Source: a virus. Taken from it: DNA of 64,000 nt. The stretch spans positions 1 to 64,000 of IMG/VR virus record IMGVR_UViG_3300046674_000373; one strand, given 5' to 3'. A program made the translations under genes and the position numbers. Positions 1,250-57,147 of the stretch are shown here, piece by piece. The notes beneath the pieces were generated by a model that was not told the DNA's origin, did no database searches, and saw only the letters and a program-made list of their open reading frames with translations. Position 1 is the first letter of the stretch; each line of letters starts with the position of its first letter.

Positions 1250-1374
1250 AGCAGCGCCCACCACACACCACCCCAGAACGGCACGCACACGGCCAGGATG
1301 ATGGCGAGCCCCAGTCGCGGGCTCTTGCGCTCGCGCGCAGACGCCGGCGGCACAGTTACAGTTGCGGAATCCAT
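1246..1374 (-). CDS. Small membrane protein, 42 aa
   Basis: An ATG preceded by a good ribosome site (GAAGGAG, about five bases upstream) opens 42 codons: a Pro/Ala-rich basic N-terminus (residues 1-20) and one hydrophobic segment rich in Trp (GLAIILAVCVPFWGVWWW). The stop overlaps the next start by four bases. Likely an inner-membrane peptide; no function can be assigned. Confidence 0.55.
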   Translation of the reverse strand: MDSATVTVPPASARERKSPRLGLAIILAVCVPFWGGVWWALL

Positions 1375-1405
1375 GCTGTCTCCTTCGATTGCAGGAACGG
1401 TACCG

Positions 1406-1576
1406 TCACGCCCGCACGAGTGCGCGGGTCCGATAGGTGATCACGTCGCGGATGGTCGACTCGCCCACGCCGTACTTTCTGGCCAGCGCGCCGTAGCCGT
1501 GGCCGCGCTTTCCGGGCTGGTGCAGGCTCCGGATCTCGCGCACCTGGTCGTCGGTGAGGATTCGGCGTCGGGTCAT
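1406..1576 (-). CDS. Small helix-turn-helix DNA-binding protein, 56 aa
   Basis: Almost the whole protein is one HTH: 'LTDDQVREIRSLHQPGKR' followed by 'YGALARKYGVGESTIRDVI'. This resembles the recombinase/resolvase-type or sigma-4-like HTH of small phage regulators. The start ATG overlaps the upstream DUF4406 stop by four bases. It could regulate this operon or bind DNA during packaging; the sequence does not say which. Confidence 0.65.
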   Translation of the reverse strand: MTRRRILTDDQVREIRSLHQPGKRGHGYGALARKYGVGESTIRDVITYRTRALVRA

Positions 1577-1884
1577 CCAGCCACTCCCGCCGACGGCGCA
1601 TGCGTCACCTCGAACCCCAGCTCGCGCGCGATGTGGTGCTCCAGAGAGGCACCCTTCGACATCTGCCATCCCGGCAGCATGTGGATGCGCGTGCACGTCA
1701 TCATCAGGGGTAGGTCGGCACGCATGTAGTCGGCCCAGGTCGCGCCGTTGGCGAGCTTCACCTCGGCCGGGTTGACCACCTCGTAGCCGAGCGCCCGGTA
1801 CCACGCTGCCTCCGCATTGAATGCCGGGGCGTTGAACTGCGGGACACCGGTCATTGGACCGCTGAGATAGATGCGGCCCTTCAT
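1573..1884 (-). CDS. DUF4406-like protein, nucleoside 2-deoxyribosyltransferase fold
   Basis: 103 residues beginning with the family signature IYLSGPMTG, followed by 'FNAPAFNAEAAWYRALGYEVVNPAE' (given here in part: AFNAEAAW, VVNPAE) and 'MRADLPLMMTCTRIHMLPGW'. This is the DUF4406/deoxyribosyltransferase-like arrangement common in phages, and full length for the family. These proteins are presumed to act on nucleosides, but the activity is rarely shown. The start overlaps the methyltransferase stop region by four bases. Confidence 0.8.
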   Translation of the reverse strand: MKGRIYLSGPMTGVPQFNAPAFNAEAAWYRALGYEVVNPAEVKLANGATWADYMRADLPLMMTCTRIHMLPGWQMSKGASLEHHIARELGFEVTHAPSAGVAG

Positions 1885-3425
1885 GCTGCCACTTCCATCT
1901 CGCGCTCGTGCGCGAAATTCGCCTCGATCAGCGCGCGCGCCAGCGGCGGGCAGACGCTGTTGCCGATCATGCGGATCTGCGACGCTTTCGAGAGCTTCTT
2001 GCCGTTGTAGTACGGGTCGAGGACGTAGGTGTCCGGGAAGCCCTGCGCACGCGCCAGCTCGCGCGGCGTCAGCATACGCATGCCGATGTCGACGATCTGG
2101 TAATCCTGGCCGCGGATGGTGACCAGGCCGATGCGATCCTTCGTCGGGATCGTGTGCATCGGGTCGGTCGCCGGCTGGTCTTGGCCGCCCTCGCTATAGT
2201 ATTTGATCAGGAAGGCGCGGACCTCGGCGTGGTGTGTGCCGCCGGCGCTAATCGTATGCAGCGGCTCGCGGATGTCGGCCGTGCTGCTGGTACCGCGCAG
2301 CTTCACCAGGTTACTCGTCACCACAGCATGGTGATCGGTCGTGGTCACAGTGCCGAACGGGACTTTGACGCCCGTCCCGACCACGCCGCCGTAGTGCTTG
2401 GCGAGCATGGCGGACACCAGCGCGAAGTGGCCGCCCTTCACCTCCGCGCAGATCGTGTTGAGCGGCTTCTCCATCGACATTACGCGCTGGACGCTTGCGT
2501 TGGCGTGCTCGGTGAGGAACGGTGCCAGATTGCCGACGACGAATGGCTCGTCCGAGTCGACGATGTACTTCTTCACGCCCTTGGCGATGCGCGTCAGGGT
2601 CTTTTCCGCCAGCGGCTTAGAGCGCTCGAAGATGCTCGGGCACGGGATCGACCAGTCGATGCAGTCGGCCGCGGTGAGCCATGGCTTCAACCCGCTCGCG
2701 ACGAAGCCGGGCTGCTTCGGATTGCCGTGGGTCGGCTTGGGCCACACGATCGGGCGGCCGTCACGGCGAGCGAAGATGAACAGGCGCTTGCGGATGGTCG
2801 GAGTGCCGTAGTCGCAGGCGCGCAGGATCCGGTGCTCGACCTTGTAACCCAGCCCAGTGTGCAGGCGCTCCATCGGGAAGTCGGCGCCGAGCGCGTCGAA
2901 GATTTCCTGCTCGTCCGGGTGCCCCCGCTCCAGGCCGGTGGTGAGCGCGGCGAGGAAGGCTTGGAACGTGCGGCCCTTCAGGGCCTTGATCGGCTTGCCA
3001 TGGCTGTCGATTGGGCCCCAGTCGCGGAACTCTTCGACGTTCTCCAGGCCGATGCAGCGCGGCATCTGGAACGTGGCCCACTTGAGGGTGACCCAGGCCA
3101 AGCCGCGGATCTTCTTGTCCTTCGGCTTGCCGCCCTTGGCCTTGCTGTGGTGCTTGCAGTCCGGGCTGAACCAGGCAAGCCCGATCGGACGGTTCTGGGT
3201 GATGAAGCCCGGGTGGATGTTGAACACATCCTCCTCGTAATGGGCTGTGTCGGGGTGATTCGCGCTGTGCATGGCCAGCGCCTCGCCGTCGTGGTTGATG
3301 GCGATGTCGATCTCGCGGCCGAGCGCCATCTCGATGCCGGTGGAGGCACCGCCGCCGCCGGCGAAGTTATCGATCACCAGTTCGTTGCCGAGATCGAGGT
3401 CCAGAGTGAATTCGTCGCGCCTCAT
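1881..3425 (-). CDS. DNA (cytosine-5)-methyltransferase
   Basis: 514 residues with the ordered C5-methyltransferase motifs. Motif I is FAGGGGASTG (residues ~21-30, AdoMet binding), motif IV is SPDCKHHS with the probable catalytic Cys at ~90 (PDC instead of the usual PC), motif VI is ENV (~128-130), and motif VIII lies near RLFIFARR. Motif IX-X sequence comes near the C-terminus (MRMLTPRELARAQGFP, then GNSVCPPLARALIEAN). The product probably methylates phage DNA and blocks host restriction. No endonuclease partner is adjacent, so it looks like an orphan methylase. Start ATG overlaps the upstream stop by four bases. Confidence 0.92.
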   Translation of the reverse strand: MRRDEFTLDLDLGNELVIDNFAGGGGASTGIEMALGREIDIAINHDGEALAMHSANHPDTAHYEEDVFNIHPGFITQNRPIGLAWFSPDCKHHSKAKGGKPKDKKIRGLAWVTLKWATFQMPRCIGLENVEEFRDWGPIDSHGKPIKALKGRTFQAFLAALTTGLERGHPDEQEIFDALGADFPMERLHTGLGYKVEHRILRACDYGTPTIRKRLFIFARRDGRPIVWPKPTHGNPKQPGFVASGLKPWLTAADCIDWSIPCPSIFERSKPLAEKTLTRIAKGVKKYIVDSDEPFVVGNLAPFLTEHANASVQRVMSMEKPLNTICAEVKGGHFALVSAMLAKHYGGVVGTGVKVPFGTVTTTDHHAVVTSNLVKLRGTSSTADIREPLHTISAGGTHHAEVRAFLIKYYSEGGQDQPATDPMHTIPTKDRIGLVTIRGQDYQIVDIGMRMLTPRELARAQGFPDTYVLDPYYNGKKLSKASQIRMIGNSVCPPLARALIEANFAHEREMEVAA

Positions 3426-47887: not shown

Positions 47888-48205
47888 TTAGTTGACTGGG
47901 ATGCCGTGTGCGCGCGCCGACACGTTGGCAACGTCAGCACGCACCCAGATTTTCTCGCCAGCGGAGATCGCCAGTCCGGTGTTCTCCATTACGCCGTTGG
48001 CCTCGACGCGCGAGTCATACTCGATGTAGTCGGCTGCCGCCGGGGCCACCCCGGCGCCGATCGCGATGCGGATCTTGATCGGCGCCGCGTTGCGATTGCA
48101 CAGCCGAACATTGACGACGAGGTCGAGCGTCTGCGCGTCCATCAGCAGTGTGTCGGTGGCCGCCGCCAGATCGGCGCTGCCCAATTTGCCAGTTCCAAGC
48201 GTCAT
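47888..48205 (-). CDS. Tail-associated beta-rich protein, 105 aa
   Basis: 'GSADLAAATDTLLMDAQTLD', 'NVRLCNRNAAPIKIRIAIGA' and 'GLAISAGEKIWVRADVANVS' suggest a small beta sandwich found beside phage fibre genes. Overlaps the next fibre gene by four bases. Confidence 0.6.
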   Translation of the reverse strand: MTLGTGKLGSADLAAATDTLLMDAQTLDLVVNVRLCNRNAAPIKIRIAIGAGVAPAAADYIEYDSRVEANGVMENTGLAISAGEKIWVRADVANVSARAHGIPVN

Positions 48206-49041
48206 ACAAACTGCCCCATAAAGTAGGATCGCCCCGCGACCAGTTTGCGCAGGTTGAGCGGTTCATTCGGCTCGTTCTGGACGAAAAGCACGCGGATGCC
48301 GGCCGGCAGCGTGCGCGCCAGTTGAACCTGTGTCGCACTCAGGATGGCGAACTCGAACTCGCGCGAGCCGTCGACATAGACGGCGACACCATCCGTGGTG
48401 CACACGCTCAGCGTGAACGTGTCCTGGCCTGCAACCGCGGTCTGGATCTCCTTGATCACGTCGACCGCGATGTTGAGCGATGCTGTCGGGTCGGCCCACT
48501 CGGTGTCGCCGTCCGCATTGGTCTTCTTGCGCAGCACCTGTCCGGTGGTCCCACCCGGGAATAGCAGCGCTGGCGTGATGGTCGACAGCACCCAGTCGCG
48601 CGTAGCGCCAACGATAGTCGCGTCGATCACCAGCGTGATGGCCGAAGCGTTCGATAGCTTCAGGCCGAACTTGATGACCAGGTCACGCGTTGAGCCGTCG
48701 GCCACCACCGGCTTGTAGGTCTCCGGGAAGTTGGCGACGGCGAACAGCACGCCATTGGCTGTGTACAGTCCCACTTCGCGGATTGCCCAACCGCCCTGGT
48801 TCGGTGGAATCAGGAGCTCGGCATACAGCAGCGTCGGGTCGGTAGGGTCGGTGTCGAGACTCGACAGGTTGTTCCGGTACACCTCACGCACGAGCGTCGT
48901 CTGCGCCGCTGATGGCGTAGTCGGGTTACCGCCACCGTCCCCAACCGCCATTGCCGTCAGCTGCACCGGCACGCCGGTTTGCGTCGCGGCCGTGTACAGC
49001 ACAAGTCCGGCTTGGGTCAGTTTTGCTAAGAAGGTCGCCAT
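48202..49041 (-). CDS. Phage tail-collar fibre protein
   Basis: 279 residues. N-terminal 'LTQAGLVLYTAATQTGVPVQ', 'LTAMAVGDGGG', 'LVREVYRNNLSSLDTDPTDP', 'ELLIPPNQGGWAIREVGLYT' is the conserved tail-collar (DUF3751-like) fibre N-terminus of contractile-tailed phages. It binds the baseplate; the C-terminal half is beta-rich and of unknown ligand. Confidence 0.85.
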   Translation of the reverse strand: MATFLAKLTQAGLVLYTAATQTGVPVQLTAMAVGDGGGNPTTPSAAQTTLVREVYRNNLSSLDTDPTDPTLLYAELLIPPNQGGWAIREVGLYTANGVLFAVANFPETYKPVVADGSTRDLVIKFGLKLSNASAITLVIDATIVGATRDWVLSTITPALLFPGGTTGQVLRKKTNADGDTEWADPTASLNIAVDVIKEIQTAVAGQDTFTLSVCTTDGVAVYVDGSREFEFAILSATQVQLARTLPAGIRVLFVQNEPNEPLNLRKLVAGRSYFMGQFV

Positions 49042-49106
49042 GCCGTCATTGTCGTGTCACGACGAGCTCTGGCATGGCGTGGGGTGGCTGCTTGGTGAGC
49101 GCGTTG

Positions 49107-49163
49107 TCAGCCACGCATAGTCGGGCGCCGGGTTGGAAGCGATGGGGTTACAACAATCGTCAT
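49107..49163 (-). CDS. Mini-ORF A2, 18 aa
   Basis: ATGA overlap with mini-ORF A1 opens MTIVVTPSLPTRRPTMRG. Second of two coupled short frames after the 610-aa tailspike gene. Translation is not proven. Confidence 0.25.
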   Translation of the reverse strand: MTIVVTPSLPTRRPTMRG

Positions 49164-49190
49164 GTCAGCCTTTCATGCGCTGCGCGCCGG
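49159..49190 (-). repeat. 32-bp direct repeat, copy A
   Basis: All 32 bases match 51,163-51,194. The two copies lie after the two tailspike genes and encode the shared RRAAHERLT end of the mini-ORFs. A GCGATGGGTTGGG element is found beside each copy but on opposite sides. Confidence 0.8.
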
Positions 49191-49216
49191 GCGATGGGTT
49201 GGGGGATGATGGTCAT
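49160..49216 (-). CDS. Mini-ORF A1, 18 aa
   Basis: ATG follows the tailspike stop codon without a gap (TAAATG). MTIIPQPIARRAAHERLT; its C-terminal RRAAHERLT is identical to mini-ORF B1 after the other tailspike. Translation is not proven. Confidence 0.3.
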   Translation of the reverse strand: MTIIPQPIARRAAHERLT

Positions 49217-51049
49217 TTAGAAGCCGCTCTCCATGTACTCCAGCATCAGATGGATTTCGCTTGCGGTCCCCGCATTCCAGTTGACAGCCGTAGTGCCGAC
49301 TTTCGGCGCGTAGAACGTGATCGTCCCGGCAGCTTCGAAGCGTGCCCAGCCAGTGCCGATCTGCCCCAGCGCCCCGCACCAGATGAATGGAATGAACACC
49401 GGCTGCACGGAGCTAAACGAGGTGTAATGCGTCGAAGGAGTGCGCGGCGGGGTGATGACGACGTTCGCAGTCGCGTCCGTGGTCTGGAACCGCACGCGGA
49501 AATGCCATCGCACCAATCCACCAAAGCGCATGAATTTTGACTTCATCTCGGTGATGGAGGCGACATTGGTCATGTTCGAAGTGGTCAGCGCGTAGTTCTG
49601 CCACTTCAATCCCTGGTCGTAGGCGTACGCGGTTGTCGGCAGCGCGAGTCCGTTGGGCGTGTTCAGCCACATCACGCCCTGATCAACGCCAGCCAGATAG
49701 CCATTGTTTTGGTGCGTGTACGCGCTGTTTACTTGCGGCAGCACGGACGCATCGCTACCCCCTGCCATCACGAGCGGCGTGGCGGTCAGCAGCAGTTTGG
49801 AGCCGGTCATACCGCAGCCGAAAAACTCGCTGTAGGCGTTCGCGTTGTCGAGGTCGCGACCGCAGCCTTCCATCATGCATCCGAAGAACCGGTTGCTGTT
49901 GTTGGCAAGGCCGGTAACCGGATCGGACGCGCGAATCTTGATTGCGGTCGGGGTGGCGTTCGGTGTCGTGCCGTAATTGACCAGTTCGCAATGGACGGCG
50001 ACGAACACATTGGTATCGCCAGCGTCGATCTGGACGCCGGTATTGGCGACCGTTTGCCCGATGCGCCAGTTCTCGAACTTGTTGCGGTTGACCAGCGAGC
50101 CGTTGGCATTCGTCGGAGAGCGAAGCCACAGACCGCGCACGCACTGATAAACCTTGTAGTTGCTCAGCGTGTTGTAGTAGCAACCTGACGCCAGTGAGCC
50201 GTTGTACGGGCCGCACTTGAGCGCAACGCCTTCGGTGCAGCCGACCACATACACGTTGTCGAAGCGGTTGTAACTCTGCGAAACCACGGTGGTGGTCTGC
50301 GTCGTGCTTTCCGGGTAAATCGCATGGCCGGTGACGTTAGCCTTGCCATTGCCGTAAATCGTGAAATCGCGCCCACTGTTGTGGCTGTCCGCAGTGCGAA
50401 GCACGATCATGTTATCCGATCCGGCCAAGAACCGGCAGCAGTGACCAAGAATGTGGATGCGCCCGGTGGTTCCGTTGTCGGAAGTGTAGGGCTGAAGAAT
50501 GCCATTCAAGGCACCATCAGCACCAGCGATGCCGTTTAAAAGGTAGCTTGCGCCGATAGTTCCTTCGACCACCCCGCCGCCAACAGTCTTTAGGTAAGCA
50601 ATGGCTGCCGCCCACGCTGGGCTAGAATTGGTAACGCCAAGAGGATCAGCGCCGAACCAATCAGGCGACACATTGCCGTCATACTGCCGCTTCCAGCGCT
50701 TCTCATTGCTCGCCACAATCACAGTTCCGCCGTTGTCAGCGGTCGTGGTGTCGCTGTCATCCCGCACAAACATGCCAGCAATGCCCGATGGCGCAGCCGT
50801 GCCAAGGTAGCCCGTCACATACACGCTTTTCAGCACGCCGCTGTACGCCCGTAAGGCAGCGTAGTCCGCTGCCTCGAACTTGAACCCGGCAATGTCGGCC
50901 ACGTAGGCGGCCGAATCCGCCAGCATCTTCGCGAACGACCGCACCGGCCCGCCCTCAGTGGTCACGGTGGTGTTCGCATCCCCGTGCACGACCTGGTGCG
51001 CGATGTCAGCGTCAGTTTCAAACTGCAGGACTTTGTCGGTCAGGGCCAT
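49217..51049 (-). CDS. Tailspike with pectate-lyase-like beta helix, copy 1
   Basis: 610 residues. The N-terminal ~140 residues match the second spike: 'HQVVHGDANTTVTTEGGPVR', 'SGIAGMFVRDDSDTTTADNG', 'GTVIVASNEKRWKRQYDG', then '(W)FGADPLGVTNSSPAWAAAI' as the start of a right-handed beta helix. The body has repeated short strands and loops typical of polysaccharide-degrading spikes. Its C-terminus is unlike that of the second spike. Likely degrades capsule or LPS. Confidence 0.8.
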   Translation of the reverse strand: MALTDKVLQFETDADIAHQVVHGDANTTVTTEGGPVRSFAKMLADSAAYVADIAGFKFEAADYAALRAYSGVLKSVYVTGYLGTAAPSGIAGMFVRDDSDTTTADNGGTVIVASNEKRWKRQYDGNVSPDWFGADPLGVTNSSPAWAAAIAYLKTVGGGVVEGTIGASYLLNGIAGADGALNGILQPYTSDNGTTGRIHILGHCCRFLAGSDNMIVLRTADSHNSGRDFTIYGNGKANVTGHAIYPESTTQTTTVVSQSYNRFDNVYVVGCTEGVALKCGPYNGSLASGCYYNTLSNYKVYQCVRGLWLRSPTNANGSLVNRNKFENWRIGQTVANTGVQIDAGDTNVFVAVHCELVNYGTTPNATPTAIKIRASDPVTGLANNSNRFFGCMMEGCGRDLDNANAYSEFFGCGMTGSKLLLTATPLVMAGGSDASVLPQVNSAYTHQNNGYLAGVDQGVMWLNTPNGLALPTTAYAYDQGLKWQNYALTTSNMTNVASITEMKSKFMRFGGLVRWHFRVRFQTTDATANVVITPPRTPSTHYTSFSSVQPVFIPFIWCGALGQIGTGWARFEAAGTITFYAPKVGTTAVNWNAGTASEIHLMLEYMESGF

Positions 51050-51074
51050 GGCGTATTTGGTTGGTTGCGTTGGA

Positions 51075-51167
51075 TCATTGTTGATTCACGACTGGTGCCG
51101 GGCAAGGCGAGCCTTTCAGCAGGTTGCGCTGCGATGCGCTGGCGATGGGTTGGGCGATGGTGGTCAT
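51075..51167 (-). CDS. Mini-ORF B2, 30 aa
   Basis: ATGA overlap with B1. Begins MTTIAQPIASASQRNLLKG; the opening resembles mini-ORF A1 (MTIIPQPIA). It ends 25 bases before the next tailspike start, so it might couple translation. Not proven. Confidence 0.25.
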   Translation of the reverse strand: MTTIAQPIASASQRNLLKGSPCPAPVVNQQ

Positions 51168-51194
51168 GTCAGCCTTTCATGCGCTGCGCGCCGG
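51163..51194 (-). repeat. 32-bp direct repeat, copy B
   Basis: Identical to 49,159-49,190. Lies in the 186-bp gap between the two tailspike genes and codes the end of mini-ORF B1. Confidence 0.8.
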
Positions 51195-51226
51195 TAGGGG
51201 CCAATGGTGGAGGTGATGATGGTCAT
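51164..51226 (-). CDS. Mini-ORF B1, 20 aa
   Basis: MTIITSTIGPYRRAAHERLT, nine bases after the 634-aa tailspike stop. Shares RRAAHERLT and the opening MTII with A1. Confidence 0.3.
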   Translation of the reverse strand: MTIITSTIGPYRRAAHERLT

Positions 51227-51235
51227 GGGTGGCTC

Positions 51236-53140
51236 TTAAACCGTATAGGTGCCAGAAACCATGATGTAGGCAGACGCCTTATATGGGATAGTTGCAACTG
51301 CGCCGCCGCCAGATGGCTCTTGGAAGAACAGGATGTTATTTGCGCCAGGGTTGAAGTTTGCGCGCGGGATAGATCCTGCCGTCCAGGTTAGGTTATTTGT
51401 CCGCGCGATGTTCGCTGCCGGGTACGTGCTGGATGCCGCGACAGTGAACGGAAGCCCAGCAATGGCAAGGTCGCCCGTACCAGTTCCGCCGCTCCAATTG
51501 ACCCAGCATTCGACGAAAACTTGCCGCCCGATTTTTGTGTAGCGGCCATTCTGCGCGGTATAGGTTGCTGTGCCTGCGGTCGACTGGCCGACAACAGTAG
51601 GCGTCCATGTGCCTTCTTTGTAGTCGTCTAGCGTGTTCGGATCGGTTGACGGGTTTTGTGTCGCCGGGAATGTGATTCCATTGCCTCCGGCAAGCGGATC
51701 TTGCCGCCCAAGAGTGACGCGACCTTGCTCAATCCACGTTGTCTGAGAAGGGTCGCCCGTCAGCGCGCCAGAAAACGAATTAATGATGGTTGCTTTTGCG
51801 CCAGTGCTGATATGGATCTGCTCTTGGCCAAGACCGGTATTGTTATTTGTCGCCCGGCAGCCAACAAGGAAGAGTGCACCGCCGCCGCTGACGTTATCCA
51901 TGTAGATAACGTTTTTGCAGCTGTCGCCGGGGATCATCTCGCCGCCGATCACGTTCAAGTGGGTACCCGCGGTACCATCAAAATAGATGTTGTATTGCCC
52001 TGGGTTTGCCTCCATGTGGCAGCCGATCATCGTAACCTTACCGGCCTGCGAGAACTCCACCACGCGCACTCCGTCTGTAGTGTTGCCGCTGGCGTTATTA
52101 CTTTCGATTTCGCATCCAGAGAAAGTGACTGCCCCATTCGGGAAGCCTACGGCGCGAATCGCCTTATCGTTAGATATGATCTGGCACCTGGAAAAGTGGA
52201 GATCATTTGGGGCAAATTCTGAATCGATAGCTAGGTCAATACCGTACGCACAGTTCTCGATGAAGAGATTTTCATACTGGCTGATTAGGTTGCCATAGCC
52301 ATACAGCCCGCGATAGCAGTTCTTGAGCGTGCAGTCTTTAACATGGACGTTTGCGCCATGCTGGGCCTGTATGGCAGATGAACTGGTGTTGGACTTTCCT
52401 GGCCCAATGATGTCGAAGCCATGCACGAGCGCGTGGATACGCACTTCTGGTGCTGAATCGGGATTGCGAGCATCAATCACGATCACCGGGGCATTCGCGG
52501 TTGCCGTGATTGTCGTACGATGCCCGCGAAGTTCGAAGCCTTCGCCGAAGTTTCCACCAACGGTAATCGAGCCGCTGGTTTTCATGTTGCCTGGCGGTAC
52601 GGTGACGCATTTAAGTCCACTGGATTTTGCGTACTGAATTGCGCTGTTCAGTGCCGATGTTGAATCGGTGACGCCATCGCATACCACGCCGAACCATGCG
52701 GAATTGATTGCTCCGTCGAAGCGGCGCTTCCACCGTTTCCCATTGCTCGCCACAATGACCGTGCCGCCATTGTCCGCAGTCGTGGTATCAGCATCATCGC
52801 GCACGAACATGCCTGCAATGCCCGATGCGACCACATACACGCTCTTGCGCGCACCAGCGTAGGCACGCAGGGCGGGGTAGTCGGCCAGTTGCAGGGCGGC
52901 CAGCTCCGACGCGACGCTTTCCGTGCCGTGCATCACCAGGCCCGCTCCACCTACCGCCGCCAGCTGCGCCAGCGACGGCGCCTGCGCGTCGATCGCCGCC
53001 TGGTTATCCGCTACCAGCTTGGCCAGCGACCGCACGGGCCCGCCGTCGGTCGTTACGGTTGTATTCGCGTCCCCGTGAACGATTTGGTGCGCCTTGTCGG
53101 CGTCGAGGAAGAAGCGGGCAACTTTGTCGAAGAGGCTCAT
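51236..53140 (-). CDS. Tailspike with pectate-lyase-like beta helix, copy 2
   Basis: 634 residues with an N-terminus homologous to the other spike ('HQIVHGDANTTVTTDGGPVR', 'SGIAGMFVRDDADTTTADNG', 'GTVIVASNGKRWKRRFDG', 'WFGVVCDGVTDSTSALNSAI'). The beta-helix body is different and carries a separate C-terminal beta domain ('GRYTKIGRQVFVECWVNW', 'AIAGLPFTVAASSTY') typical of spike trimer tips. Probably recognises and degrades a different glycan. The gene follows the baseplate gpI-like gene by three bases. Confidence 0.82.
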   Translation of the reverse strand: MSLFDKVARFFLDADKAHQIVHGDANTTVTTDGGPVRSLAKLVADNQAAIDAQAPSLAQLAAVGGAGLVMHGTESVASELAALQLADYPALRAYAGARKSVYVVASGIAGMFVRDDADTTTADNGGTVIVASNGKRWKRRFDGAINSAWFGVVCDGVTDSTSALNSAIQYAKSSGLKCVTVPPGNMKTSGSITVGGNFGEGFELRGHRTTITATANAPVIVIDARNPDSAPEVRIHALVHGFDIIGPGKSNTSSSAIQAQHGANVHVKDCTLKNCYRGLYGYGNLISQYENLFIENCAYGIDLAIDSEFAPNDLHFSRCQIISNDKAIRAVGFPNGAVTFSGCEIESNNASGNTTDGVRVVEFSQAGKVTMIGCHMEANPGQYNIYFDGTAGTHLNVIGGEMIPGDSCKNVIYMDNVSGGGALFLVGCRATNNNTGLGQEQIHISTGAKATIINSFSGALTGDPSQTTWIEQGRVTLGRQDPLAGGNGITFPATQNPSTDPNTLDDYKEGTWTPTVVGQSTAGTATYTAQNGRYTKIGRQVFVECWVNWSGGTGTGDLAIAGLPFTVAASSTYPAANIARTNNLTWTAGSIPRANFNPGANNILFFQEPSGGGAVATIPYKASAYIMVSGTYTV

Positions 53141-53143
53141 GGT

Positions 53144-54241
53144 TTACCAGTAGTTAGAAGTTGGAATGGTTGCGTGCAGGCCGGTATGCAGCGCGTCGAC
53201 CGCGGACTCGGTTACTGTGGATCCCGATGCCAGCGCCTCAGCTTCCAGATCGGTGCCGGTTAGGTAGTCGCCCGTCGTCAGGCGCGAGTGCAACAGCGTA
53301 TGCAGCACGTCGACGGCTTCCTCGGTCGCGGGCTCGCCATAGGTCGCGCCCTCGGCCAGCAGAGGATTGTCCAGTAGCAGATCGGACAGCCCGACCACCG
53401 AGGTGTCTCCGATCATCACCGCGCCGCCCACGTACAGCGTTGCTTTCACGCGAGTGATGATGGCCAGGCGCCGTAGGAACGTGCCGGCGTCGCGCATGCG
53501 GTCGATGGTCTCGATGATGGATAGGATCAGGGCCACGTAAGCGGTTACTGCCAGCTGCTCCAGCGAAACTTCGAAGTCGACGTCGAACAGGCCATAGGAG
53601 CCGTTGACGATCTGGTCGTAGTCGCTGACCGTGGCCGGCAGGCCGGCGTTGATCACGCGCAGTGCCGACTCGATCGCGACGTTGTTGCCCAGCGGCCGCA
53701 GCACGGTGGCGATGATCCGAGGCCCGTACACCGAATCCGGCTCGTCCTGCTGGCGTGGCACGTCGTAGTAGCCGCCGAGCTCGTCCAGCCACACATCCTC
53801 GGCCGTGTTCGTACTCATCTGCAGCAGCATGTTCTCGATCTGGCGGCCGGCCGCGTCGAGTTCGCGCGCGTTGGCCTCCATGTACGACCACAGCACGCTG
53901 GTGTAGGCATACAGGTGGTCGCCGTTGGACGTGTTGACATCGCCGCTCGCATCGATCAGCACGCCGGCGCCCAGCACTGAGTAGGCGGAGTCGTCGCTGT
54001 ACAGCACCGAGTAGCCTGGCTGCACGGCAAGGTAGTTCGCCAACGACGCGACGCTGTACTGGGTCAGGTCGACGTCGAGCGGCTGCGCGGTGCCGCCGAC
54101 AGGCGTTGTGGTCAGGCGCGCATCGCGCACGGACCAGGTCATCCCCGTACCGTCGCAGCTCAGGCGCAGTGCGAGAAACGGCGCCGGATCCTTGTCGAAT
54201 ATCCGGTGCAGGTAGGACAGCAGGCGGCTCGTCAGTTTCAT
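53144..54241 (-). CDS. Baseplate protein of the gpI / DUF2612 type
   Basis: 365 residues: 'YTSVLWSYMEANARELDAAG', 'EDVWLDELGGYYDVPRQQDE', 'YGPRIIATVLRPLGNNVAIE' match phage tail protein I-like wedge components. The C-terminal ~70 residues hold two short repeats ('DVLHTLLHSRLTTGDYLTG', 'DALHTGLHATIPTSNYW') that may attach the spikes. Position between baseplate J and the spikes supports this. Confidence 0.78.
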   Translation of the reverse strand: MKLTSRLLSYLHRIFDKDPAPFLALRLSCDGTGMTWSVRDARLTTTPVGGTAQPLDVDLTQYSVASLANYLAVQPGYSVLYSDDSAYSVLGAGVLIDASGDVNTSNGDHLYAYTSVLWSYMEANARELDAAGRQIENMLLQMSTNTAEDVWLDELGGYYDVPRQQDEPDSVYGPRIIATVLRPLGNNVAIESALRVINAGLPATVSDYDQIVNGSYGLFDVDFEVSLEQLAVTAYVALILSIIETIDRMRDAGTFLRRLAIITRVKATLYVGGAVMIGDTSVVGLSDLLLDNPLLAEGATYGEPATEEAVDVLHTLLHSRLTTGDYLTGTDLEAEALASGSTVTESAVDALHTGLHATIPTSNYW

Positions 54242-55353
54242 AGGATGGTGATCGCACCAGGCATCAGCTTGGTCGTCTGGTCGACGGTGACATTGGCCGA
54301 GGGGGAGCTGAACACGATGTCGTAGACGCCCGGGATTTCCTTAACCTGCTTGATGATCTCCGACAGGATGGCTGGCTCGCCGATGCCGCGCGAGATGAGG
54401 TATGAATAAACCACCTGCACGGCTTGCGTGACCAAGGTCGGCTTGTCGTAGCCGTCGGCCGCCGTCAGCGTGCCGTCCACATTGACCAGGGCCTCGATCG
54501 CAGCAAAGACCTCGACCTTCACCCCGGCAGACTTCCAGCCCGGCACCGGCTGGCCGCTGGCGTCGTAATAGCCGTGCAGGACCTCGCTCGCCCGTGCGAC
54601 CAGATCAGCCGAGGTTGAGCCGGCGCCGTTGTGCACGTAGCACAGCACCCGCGAGACCGTGGCGGATGGATTGGTCAGGTACGGCTCGATGATCGAGGAC
54701 GATACGACCCGCTCGGTACGATTGCCGTTCGCGTCGGTCAGGAAGGCCAGAGACAGCCCGTAGCGCAGCGCCTTGATGGTGCCGCGGTTGAGCGACGACA
54801 CGAAGTCGTTAAAGCGTGCCTTGCGCTCGTCAGGGGTTTCCTGGTCGACGCCGCTGGCAAACGCCGTCAGGCTCGATGCCGAGGCAAAGGACTGGAGCGT
54901 GGGCTCGATCGTGAACGACACGCCGGCCGCGATGTTGCCAGCCACGCCCGGCTGATCACAGGTGACCAGGACATCGGCATAGGTCGCGCCAGCAGGGATT
55001 GTCACGCTGGCGTTCGAGGTGAACTTGACGCCGCCCGCTGTCGGCGTGAACACCGTGCCGTCGGGGATCAGCGCGGCCGTGGTAGCCGCGGTGACGAACA
55101 CCCGAATGTAACCGATCGCCGGCAGCGCGGTAACTTCGTCAAAGCTGAAACTATTGTAGACGGAGACCTCGATTGCCTCCTTCAGTCCGATGACCATCTG
55201 CTGGTACAGCTCGTCGATTTCCGCTGCAGGAGCCTCGACCATGGTACGCGCGGCCGAGCCGATGTTGAAGTCGGTCAGCTTCTGCTGAGTGGAGCGCATC
55301 CAGTTGATCATACTGGCTGAAATGCTCGCGAAATCTTTGATTTGAAACGCCAT
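54238..55353 (-). CDS. Baseplate wedge protein J (gp47-like)
   Basis: 371 residues: 'FNIGSAARTMVEAPAAEIDE', 'GTVFTPTAGGVKFTSNASVT', 'CDQPGVAGNIAAGVSFTI', 'QETPDERKARFNDFVSSLNR' are the baseplate-J/gp47 signature. It forms the ring linking hub and fibres in contractile tails. Start and stop overlap neighbours. Confidence 0.9.
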   Translation of the reverse strand: MAFQIKDFASISASMINWMRSTQQKLTDFNIGSAARTMVEAPAAEIDELYQQMVIGLKEAIEVSVYNSFSFDEVTALPAIGYIRVFVTAATTAALIPDGTVFTPTAGGVKFTSNASVTIPAGATYADVLVTCDQPGVAGNIAAGVSFTIEPTLQSFASASSLTAFASGVDQETPDERKARFNDFVSSLNRGTIKALRYGLSLAFLTDANGNRTERVVSSSIIEPYLTNPSATVSRVLCYVHNGAGSTSADLVARASEVLHGYYDASGQPVPGWKSAGVKVEVFAAIEALVNVDGTLTAADGYDKPTLVTQAVQVVYSYLISRGIGEPAILSEIIKQVKEIPGVYDIVFSSPSANVTVDQTTKLMPGAITIL

Positions 55354-55967
55354 CACACCACCCTGTTCAGATCCAACGCCACGCCGGAAATCGGCACCAC
55401 TTCCGCCTCGACCGCCAGGCGGTCGCCCTGCGTCGTCGCTGTCACGCGGCTGACGTCCTTGACCCGGCTCTCCGAGCGCAGCGCCTCGTCCACGTAGTCG
55501 GCTGCCACCAGCTCGCGTACCGGGCCCGACAGCGCCCCGATCAGGCGCCCCAGGTTCGCCCCATAGCGCGGGTGGAACATCAGCTCGCCGTGATCGGTCT
55601 CGATGCGGTGCGCCAGCGCCTGGCGCAAGTTGGCGCGGCCTGACACCAGCGCGAAGTCGCCGCCGGCGAACTGAAGTTGTCCGTCCTCGATCTGGCAGTC
55701 GGCTAGGAACACCTGGTCTGGATCGACGCCGGCATCGACCTCGGCGCTGGCGGCCGGTACCCGGATCGTCGACCCGGTCAGCAGTACCCCGACACGCACC
55801 TCGGCCGGATTGTCGGTCAGGTACGGCGGGACCAGGTTGTTCATCCAGCTCAGCTGGGACCACTTGGCCGCATCGCCGAGCTCGCGCAGCGCGACCGCGC
55901 GCAGGGTATCTCCGTACAGGGTCTGGACGAACCGGAAGCCCGTAATCGGGCGGGTAAAGTCGGTCAT
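55353..55967 (-). CDS. gpW/gp25-like baseplate protein
   Basis: 204 residues. C-terminal half 'HGELMFHPRYGANLGRLIGA', 'SRVTATTQGDRLAVEAEVVP' is the gp25-like lysozyme-fold wedge protein. The N-terminal ~95 residues ('LYGDTLRAVALRELGDAAKW', 'VLLTGSTIRVPA') resemble a LysM-type domain, seen in some fused phage baseplate proteins. The ATG overlaps the previous stop. Confidence 0.82.
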   Translation of the reverse strand: MTDFTRPITGFRFVQTLYGDTLRAVALRELGDAAKWSQLSWMNNLVPPYLTDNPAEVRVGVLLTGSTIRVPAASAEVDAGVDPDQVFLADCQIEDGQLQFAGGDFALVSGRANLRQALAHRIETDHGELMFHPRYGANLGRLIGALSGPVRELVAADYVDEALRSESRVKDVSRVTATTQGDRLAVEAEVVPISGVALDLNRVV

Positions 55968-57112
55968 CAGACGGCCACCCCGTTGTTGACCTCGGACAGG
56001 GTCGCACCGATCACTGGTAGCGGTAGCGGTGCCAGCACGACGTCCTGGTGCGAGAGCTTGTACATCGCCGCGCTGGCCACCGGTGACACGCCGACACCGC
56101 CTCCGGAGGATGGGCTGATCGCATAGAACGGGTTCTGGCCTGCATAGACCGATGGCGGGCTGCCGCCGCTGGTAGACGAGCAGTTTGACGCGCCATACAG
56201 CGGGTTGTAGTCCTCGTAAGTCGGCGTCTTCTTCAAGGCGTTGTGCAGCACGCAAAACGCATTGCTATACGCCCCCGCCACCTGCATCAGCTCAGCCTTC
56301 ACCTGGGACGGGATACTGGTGACGGCCGCCATCGTGCGAAACACGTTCATGCCGGTTTGCGCGAGGTTGCGCGCTACCAGTACAAATGGGTCCGCCAGTG
56401 ACAGCCCATTCTGGATGGTGCTGTGCACCGAGGTGAACACGGAGCTCGACAGCCGCATGAAGTCGGTCACCGGCCCCAGGATGGTCTTGTCCACGAAGTT
56501 GCGGGCTTTGTTGATAGCGGAGTTGATCTCGCCCAGCGAGCTAAACAGGCTGTCGAGCCCCAGTCCCTGTGCGCCGCCGAACAGCCCTCCGAGGCCACCA
56601 AACAGGCCAGAAATGGCACCAGGGACGCCGGCCTTCCCCACCGAGATGAAGGAAATCCGGTAGCTGGCAAGCAGCGGGCGGCTTTTGTTGCGCCGAATCT
56701 CGAACGCCAGCGGAACGATCACGCTCGAGTAGCTATTCAGGGCATCGACGAACCGAAGTTTGACGTCGTTCGGGTCGTCACCGCGGTCAACGGCCTCCTG
56801 GCGCAGCTTGTGCCACTGGTGGTAGGTTTTCTCGCGCATTTCGATCAGGCGATCGCCGCCGTCTTGACCGTCCGGTCCGGTGCGCCAACCGAGCGTGCCG
56901 GAGAGCGTCGTGGACTCCAGACCCTCACCGAACGAGTCGATCCAGGCGCCGCCGAGCGTCTGGTTGACGGACGTGCGCGACGGGTGGTTCCGGGACATTT
57001 CCTCCGGGCGGATGAACAGGGTCACCTCGTCCGCATCCCCACCCCGGGCGTCGAGGATGAAGCTGATCGGTCGGTCTTCTGCCTTCTGACTTTTGGCGGG
57101 ACTGAGGTTCAT
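55967..57112 (-). CDS. Tail/baseplate protein, 381 aa
   Basis: Contains 'ISFILDARGGDADEVTLFIR', 'GGAWIDSFGEGLESTTLSGT' and 'RFVDALNSYSSVIVPLAFEI' (N-terminal half), typical of baseplate-hub-associated proteins of contractile phages. The middle is helical; the last ~80 residues include a Ser/Gly-rich stretch and 'AAMYKLSHQDVVLAPL', which may be a LysM-like end. Position between the spike and gp25-like gene supports a baseplate role. Confidence 0.7.
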   Translation of the reverse strand: MNLSPAKSQKAEDRPISFILDARGGDADEVTLFIRPEEMSRNHPSRTSVNQTLGGAWIDSFGEGLESTTLSGTLGWRTGPDGQDGGDRLIEMREKTYHQWHKLRQEAVDRGDDPNDVKLRFVDALNSYSSVIVPLAFEIRRNKSRPLLASYRISFISVGKAGVPGAISGLFGGLGGLFGGAQGLGLDSLFSSLGEINSAINKARNFVDKTILGPVTDFMRLSSSVFTSVHSTIQNGLSLADPFVLVARNLAQTGMNVFRTMAAVTSIPSQVKAELMQVAGAYSNAFCVLHNALKKTPTYEDYNPLYGASNCSSTSGGSPPSVYAGQNPFYAISPSSGGGVGVSPVASAAMYKLSHQDVVLAPLPLPVIGATLSEVNNGVAV

Positions 57113-57147
57113 GCCCGGATCGTAACGTCACGACCCGGGCTGGCTGG

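Follow-up and report, generated by a model that had tools for sequence, protein, structure and literature searches.

Duplicated spacers with a promoter-like motif and overlapping mini-ORFs behind two phage tailspike genes

The window analyzed here comprises the first 64,000 nucleotides of the virus record IMGVR_UViG_3300046674_000373 (96,165 bases in total), and its minus strand encodes a tail module akin to those of Bordetella phage PHB04, Pseudomonas phage Touem01 and several IMG/VR contigs. Read along this strand, a baseplate protein gene (53144 to 54241) is followed by the genes for tailspike B (51236 to 53140), tailspike A (49217 to 51049) and a tail-collar fibre protein (48202 to 49041; phrog_327, 4.5e-64). 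Tailspike B, a protein of 634 aa, combines an N-terminal HGDA...GGPVRS anchor with a pectate-lyase-like region; its PHROGs matches are to tail spike and EPS depolymerase families, with weak Pfam pectate-lyase and beta-helix matches slightly below the cut-off. Tailspike A comprises 610 aa. Other genes near the spikes mostly abut or overlap, whereas the spikes are followed by gaps of 186 nt (gap B, between spike B and spike A) and 175 nt (gap A, between spike A and the fibre gene). The arrangement is known from one record of this phage, with no close relative that carries both spikes. Upstream, a single 589-aa ORF (54238 to 56007 of the window) spans the gpW-like and J-like baseplate proteins; in the related records L014 and L015, each of these has a gene of its own.

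The two spikes share approximately 155 N-terminal residues, referred to here as the anchor, and their remainders are unrelated. In DNA, the anchors are approximately 70-80% identical, and the longest exact run common to the two genes measures 16 nt. For spike A, the collections contain a single relative that matches over the full length (81.6% amino acid identity); it is encoded at positions 1316 to 3223 of record L047, within a P2-like module of tail protein I, spike and collar fibre. This identity of 82% with the spike of a P2-like tail module indicates that the cassette moved between different tail types. The window and L047 are homologous from the final part of the gene that precedes the spike, and a search for relatives by means of a 55-aa anchor alignment gave no confirmed match. 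Modular anchored receptor-binding proteins with depolymerase domains are described in a Klebsiella phage model (PMC6872550), which shares with this module a conserved N-terminal anchor, a variable C-terminal receptor-binding or depolymerase part and two spikes per phage. The present module differs in its presumed docking partner, a duplicated AVDxLH...NYW tail at the C-terminus of the upstream baseplate protein. This tail (53144 to 53360, minus strand, boundaries approximate) consists of two docking-like segments, ...TEEAVDVLHTLLH... and ...TESAVDALHTGLHATIPTSNYW, the second of which ends at the stop codon.

Tails of the AVDxLH...NYW-stop type occur where an HGDA...GGPVRS-anchored protein follows, on baseplate proteins that otherwise show no relationship to each other. 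The unrelated tail protein I of L047 (646 to 1311) bears one docking-like segment ahead of a single anchored spike, and similar ...NYW ends lie ahead of anchored proteins in L040 and in the Klebsiella plasmid-phage L044 (5337 to 5996). The tail is absent from L014, L015 and PHB04, whose spikes or fibres differ. This distribution suggests, as a lead rather than a result, that the docking-like tail may travel with the anchor, one copy per spike, and its duplication would offer a simple hypothesis for how phages gain two spikes.

The short frames that an initial annotation had reported behind both tailspikes are present on the minus strand exactly where it had placed them, and the ATGA overlap of first and second frames is confirmed for both pairs. 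In gap B, mini-ORF B1 (MTIITSTIGPYRRAAHERLT; 51164 to 51226) begins nine nt past the spike B stop and shares an ATGA with the 30-aa mini-ORF B2 (MTTIAQPIASASQRNLLKGSPCPAPVVNQQ; 51075 to 51167), the stop of which lies inside the promoter-like motif described below. The first base of mini-ORF A1 (MTIIPQPIARRAAHERLT; 49160 to 49216) directly follows the spike A stop, and A1 in turn shares an ATGA with A2 (MTIVVTPSLPTRRPTMRG; 49107 to 49163). A search of the sequence for chained frames added a third, also on the minus strand, in each gap: B3 (MIQRNQPNTPWP; 51040 to 51078), which starts at an ATGA and runs into the spike A start, and the GTG-initiated A3 (49046 to 49114), which ends in the promoter-like motif 4 nt ahead of the fibre ATG. 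The chain in gap B therefore reads spike B stop +9, ATGA, ATGA and an overlap with the spike A start, and that in gap A reads spike A stop +0 (TAAATG), ATGA, an 8-nt overlap and +4 to the fibre. In both gaps, starts lie within a few nt of upstream stops or overlap them, the proximity expected of mini-cistrons.

Such frames could couple translation, as described for mycobacterial interspersed repetitive units (MIRUs), whose small repeat-borne ORFs are coupled to a neighbouring gene at -4 nt (ATGA) spacing (PMC12548453). Here too, short intergenic repeat units carry small ORFs, and the junctions at A1/A2 and B1/B2 match those of MIRUs in spacing. Ribosomes would restart from the spike to the first, second and third mini-ORF and on to the next start, so that frame and junctions would count and the peptide sequence would be irrelevant. 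The unbroken overlapping frames across both gaps and their -4 junctions are consistent with this reading; however, complete overlapping chains also form in 4-14% of shuffled gaps, with 507/5000 shuffles of gap B when ATG alone counts as a start and 212/5000 of gap A when ATG and GTG both count, or 10-14% and 4-5%, respectively, across the sets of start codons allowed. Since the two gaps are partly copies of each other and thus not independent, these frequencies cannot be multiplied, and the chain taken alone is not rare. The SD-like AAGG ahead of A2 and B2 is no stronger than background. On the other side, neither the spike A start nor the spike B start has a clear Shine-Dalgarno sequence, which makes some form of coupling plausible, and the 6-nt indel between A1 and B1 preserves the frame, a one in three outcome by chance that also counts against regarding the mini-ORFs as idle. 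Codon usage of the mini-ORFs is intermediate between null ORFs and gene fragments: all six exceed the null-ORF median (60th to 94th percentile), again contrary to idleness, and they rank low among gene fragments (2nd to 18th percentile).

The two gaps are linked by repeated DNA. A perfect 32-bp direct repeat, CCGGCGCGCAGCGCATGAAAGGCTGACATGAC, lies behind spike B (51163 to 51194) and behind spike A (49159 to 49190), both on the minus strand, and each of A1, B1 and B2 opens with a copy of a 27-bp repeat. These three frames correspond to related units of 53-62 nt, each opening with ATGAC, and are certain copies (0/2000 shuffles for each pair), with gap B holding a tandem pair. The similarity of A2 is marginal (15/2000 shuffles against A1 and 5/2000 against B2), making a fourth copy doubtful. 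The repeats exceed chance (0 expected), and neither the unit nor the 32-bp repeat has a further copy elsewhere in the 96,165-base record.

Similarity among the post-spike frames is mainly at the level of DNA. The identity of RRAAHERLT at two sites directly behind both spikes would fit functional small peptides tied to the spikes, for example as assembly helpers, but the codons of this peptide agree in 9/9 third positions between the two copies, compared with 19/33 identical anchor residues that share a codon, and B2 bears part of the repeat in another frame. These observations point to DNA-level copying or constraint rather than peptide conservation. The remainder of the peptides differs, and peptide-family and protein-level searches returned no homologue for the mini-ORFs. 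RRAAHERLT itself, which the initial annotation had proposed to look for after tailspike genes, was not found in the viral or genome collections, and degenerate searches there for the peptide and the ATGA junction likewise gave no match; the collections used in all of these searches may omit records that lie very close to the window. A function of the peptides as such is accordingly regarded as extremely unlikely.

The post-spike region of relatives bears on the same question. In L047, the closest relative of spike A, the spike is followed by TAA-TTCAC-ATG, with 5 nt to the collar fibre gene and no mini-ORFs. L014 and L015, which belong to the window's own group and carry other receptor-binding proteins, have 13-18 nt from the receptor-binding gene stop to the promoter-like motif and no mini-ORFs between that gene and the next. 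The suggestion in the initial annotation that these peptides matter is therefore not borne out on the computational side, as the relative that keeps the spike lacks the frames, codon usage is intermediate and homologues were not found; the mini-ORF peptides probably do nothing. The absence of mini-ORFs from L047, L014 and L015 also weighs against couplers. The DNA of gap A showed no similarity to phage records. For gap B, only short stretches matched, nearly all in Mycobacterium phages, and these were taken as chance.

A separate alternative is that the repeated DNA is a recombination tract, in which the anchor at the 5′ side and the post-spike repeat at the 3′ side flank a variable receptor-binding part, homologous recombination swaps or duplicates cassettes, and the mini-ORFs are passengers. 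What the spikes have in common is limited to the N-terminal region and the repeat behind the stop, their C-terminal parts being unrelated; the 32-bp core has sharp edges and 100% identity, against approximately 70-80% for the anchors; and the spike A cassette occurs in a different tail type. However, a tract of 32 bp is short for homologous recombination to be efficient, and no other genome was found in which these repeats flank a swapped cassette, making this alternative very unlikely. The same contrast bears on the idea that the frames were copied with the spike gene. This idea holds in a modified form, in that both spikes are followed by a duplicated spacer unit and have the N-terminal anchor in common. 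The whole unit was not simply co-duplicated, because the core is fully identical and the anchors are not, with no exact run above 16 nt. The full identity of the core, although its flanks and the anchors have drifted, also counts against the explanation favored below, which needs constraint, conversion or recent copying to account for it.

At the far end of both gaps, a motif of the form NNGTCGTGAC-N3-AC(A/C)AT is conserved on the minus strand. The gap A copy, TCGTCGTGACACGACAATG (49047 to 49065), emerged from the comparison of gap A with relatives and lies 5 nt ahead of the fibre ATG; it is identical or one base off in L014, L015 and PHB04, directly ahead of tail or baseplate genes. The gap B copy, CAGTCGTGAATCAACAATG (51076 to 51094), is located 26 nt ahead of the spike A ATG. 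The form NNGTCGTGACnnnAC(A/C)AT is common to an entire phage group, including this genome, PHB04 and Touem01 (L048-L051), and the start codon usually follows 5-6 nt later. When a weight matrix trained solely on PHB04 and Touem01 was used to score the gaps, the values obtained for gap A (26.8) and gap B (18.7) were reached by 0/10000 shuffles. A weight matrix gives 11 strong matches in this genome versus 0.9 expected, and further sites lie at window position 57136 and at genome positions 66313, 72620, 77658, 79728, 82941 and 89897 (all minus strand). PHB04 and Touem01 have 19 and 15 matches against 2.1 and 2.2 expected, respectively; 33 of these 34 have, within 45 nt downstream, the start codon of an ORF with 50 or more codons, the ATG most often 5-6 nt past the 19-mer. 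Terminator-like sequence, GC-rich and with T runs, directly precedes some copies, and the leader is longer there. In L014 (14548 to 14592) and L015 (15035 to 15077), a perfect stem of approximately 12 bp separates the motif from the GTG at which the next gene starts; the L015 stem is ACAATGGTCTCC..GGAGACCATTGT, and that of L014 has the same shape and a different sequence.

From its sequence context, we infer that the motif is a phage-specific promoter. Like phage late promoters, it is short, conserved and close ahead of late genes at 10-19 copies per genome, sometimes directly behind terminator-like sequence, and it differs from them in the start codon usually 5-6 nt past the motif, which implies leaderless or near-leaderless mRNA. 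A translation signal could also fit this fixed spacing. Sigma-70 promoters and intrinsic terminators were not detected on the relevant strand. A search for a T7-type RNA polymerase with PF00940 gave no match, the control being likewise silent, and four large ORFs outside the tail module have Pfam domains other than a T7-type RNA polymerase. No description of the motif or the phage group was found in titles and abstracts of the literature.

The motif weakens the proposal of the initial annotation that the frames couple translation, since it gives the downstream genes a promoter-like signal of their own inside the gap; the proposal is kept as a rival. The motif accounts for the ATGA junctions at the ends of the gaps, and most of each mini-ORF chain would be missing from transcripts begun at it. 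In favor of coupling, an inverted repeat, CGCCATGCC...GGCATGGCG (49036 to 49079, minus strand), would pair across the fibre start codon in a read-through transcript, a hairpin that translating ribosomes could open. Its predicted stability (-22.1 kcal/mol, z -3.7, 0/200 shuffles) refers to a 58-nt stretch picked after viewing the fold of the whole gap, which is not unusual (z 0.41). Whole-gap RNA structure was rejected as a distinguishing feature, both folds being ordinary, as was a known RNA element, with none in Rfam for either gap. The TAAATG, ATGA and overlapping junctions and the hairpin over a downstream start codon resemble termination-reinitiation coupling, whereas the promoter-like motif of the downstream genes and the lack of mini-ORFs in relatives set the locus apart. 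Taken together, translational coupling as the main role of the mini-ORFs is considered unlikely.

The explanation favored here, with somewhat better than even confidence, is that each gap is a duplicated, lineage-specific spacer with the promoter-like signal of the next gene, and that the mini-ORFs are incidental or at most weak couplers. The gaps would separate independently transcribed late tail genes, each consisting of the repeat of approximately 53-62 nt followed by the motif, with the gap B motif serving spike A and the gap A motif serving the collar fibre. Transcripts would start at the 3′ end of GTCGTGACnnnACAAT, placing the mini-ORFs mostly upstream of the transcript starts for spike A and the fibre. 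The spike region may have been assembled by cassette exchange, in which an anchored spike resembling one of a P2-like phage was acquired; both the anchor and the spacer repeat are present twice. On this view, the mini-ORFs are frames incidentally held open by repeat and motif. Their ATGA junctions trace to the edge of the repeat (TGAC|ATGA) and to the ACAATGA of the motif, which provides the final stop/start overlap of each chain. In read-through transcripts from upstream, coupling through the mini-ORFs could still help, because the spike A start lacks a Shine-Dalgarno sequence and a hairpin covers the fibre AUG.

A bolder combination would join a MIRU-like tandem unit of approximately 53-62 nt, whose ATGA-joined mini-cistrons let cassettes join without breaking translation of the next gene, to a phage-specific promoter family with near-leaderless late mRNAs, start codons lying 5-6 nt behind the motif; we regard this as speculative and quite unlikely. 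In contrast to MIRUs, the units form three certain copies in a single phage, solely behind spikes, rather than an interspersed mobile family, with no copy elsewhere in 96 kb, and the last junction of the chain sits in the promoter-like motif. The layout of duplicated spikes, each with a spacer ending in the promoter-like signal of the next gene, is now testable. If the favored explanation is right, the motif would allow late-gene mapping in a little-studied phage group, its distance from start codons would suggest near-leaderless late mRNAs, and the locus would warn that regulatory DNA can give rise to ATGA-linked mini-ORFs. Beyond the window, at genome positions 93221 to 95815, the record encodes an 864-aa protein in which Pfam identifies WGR and ADP-ribosyltransferase domains.
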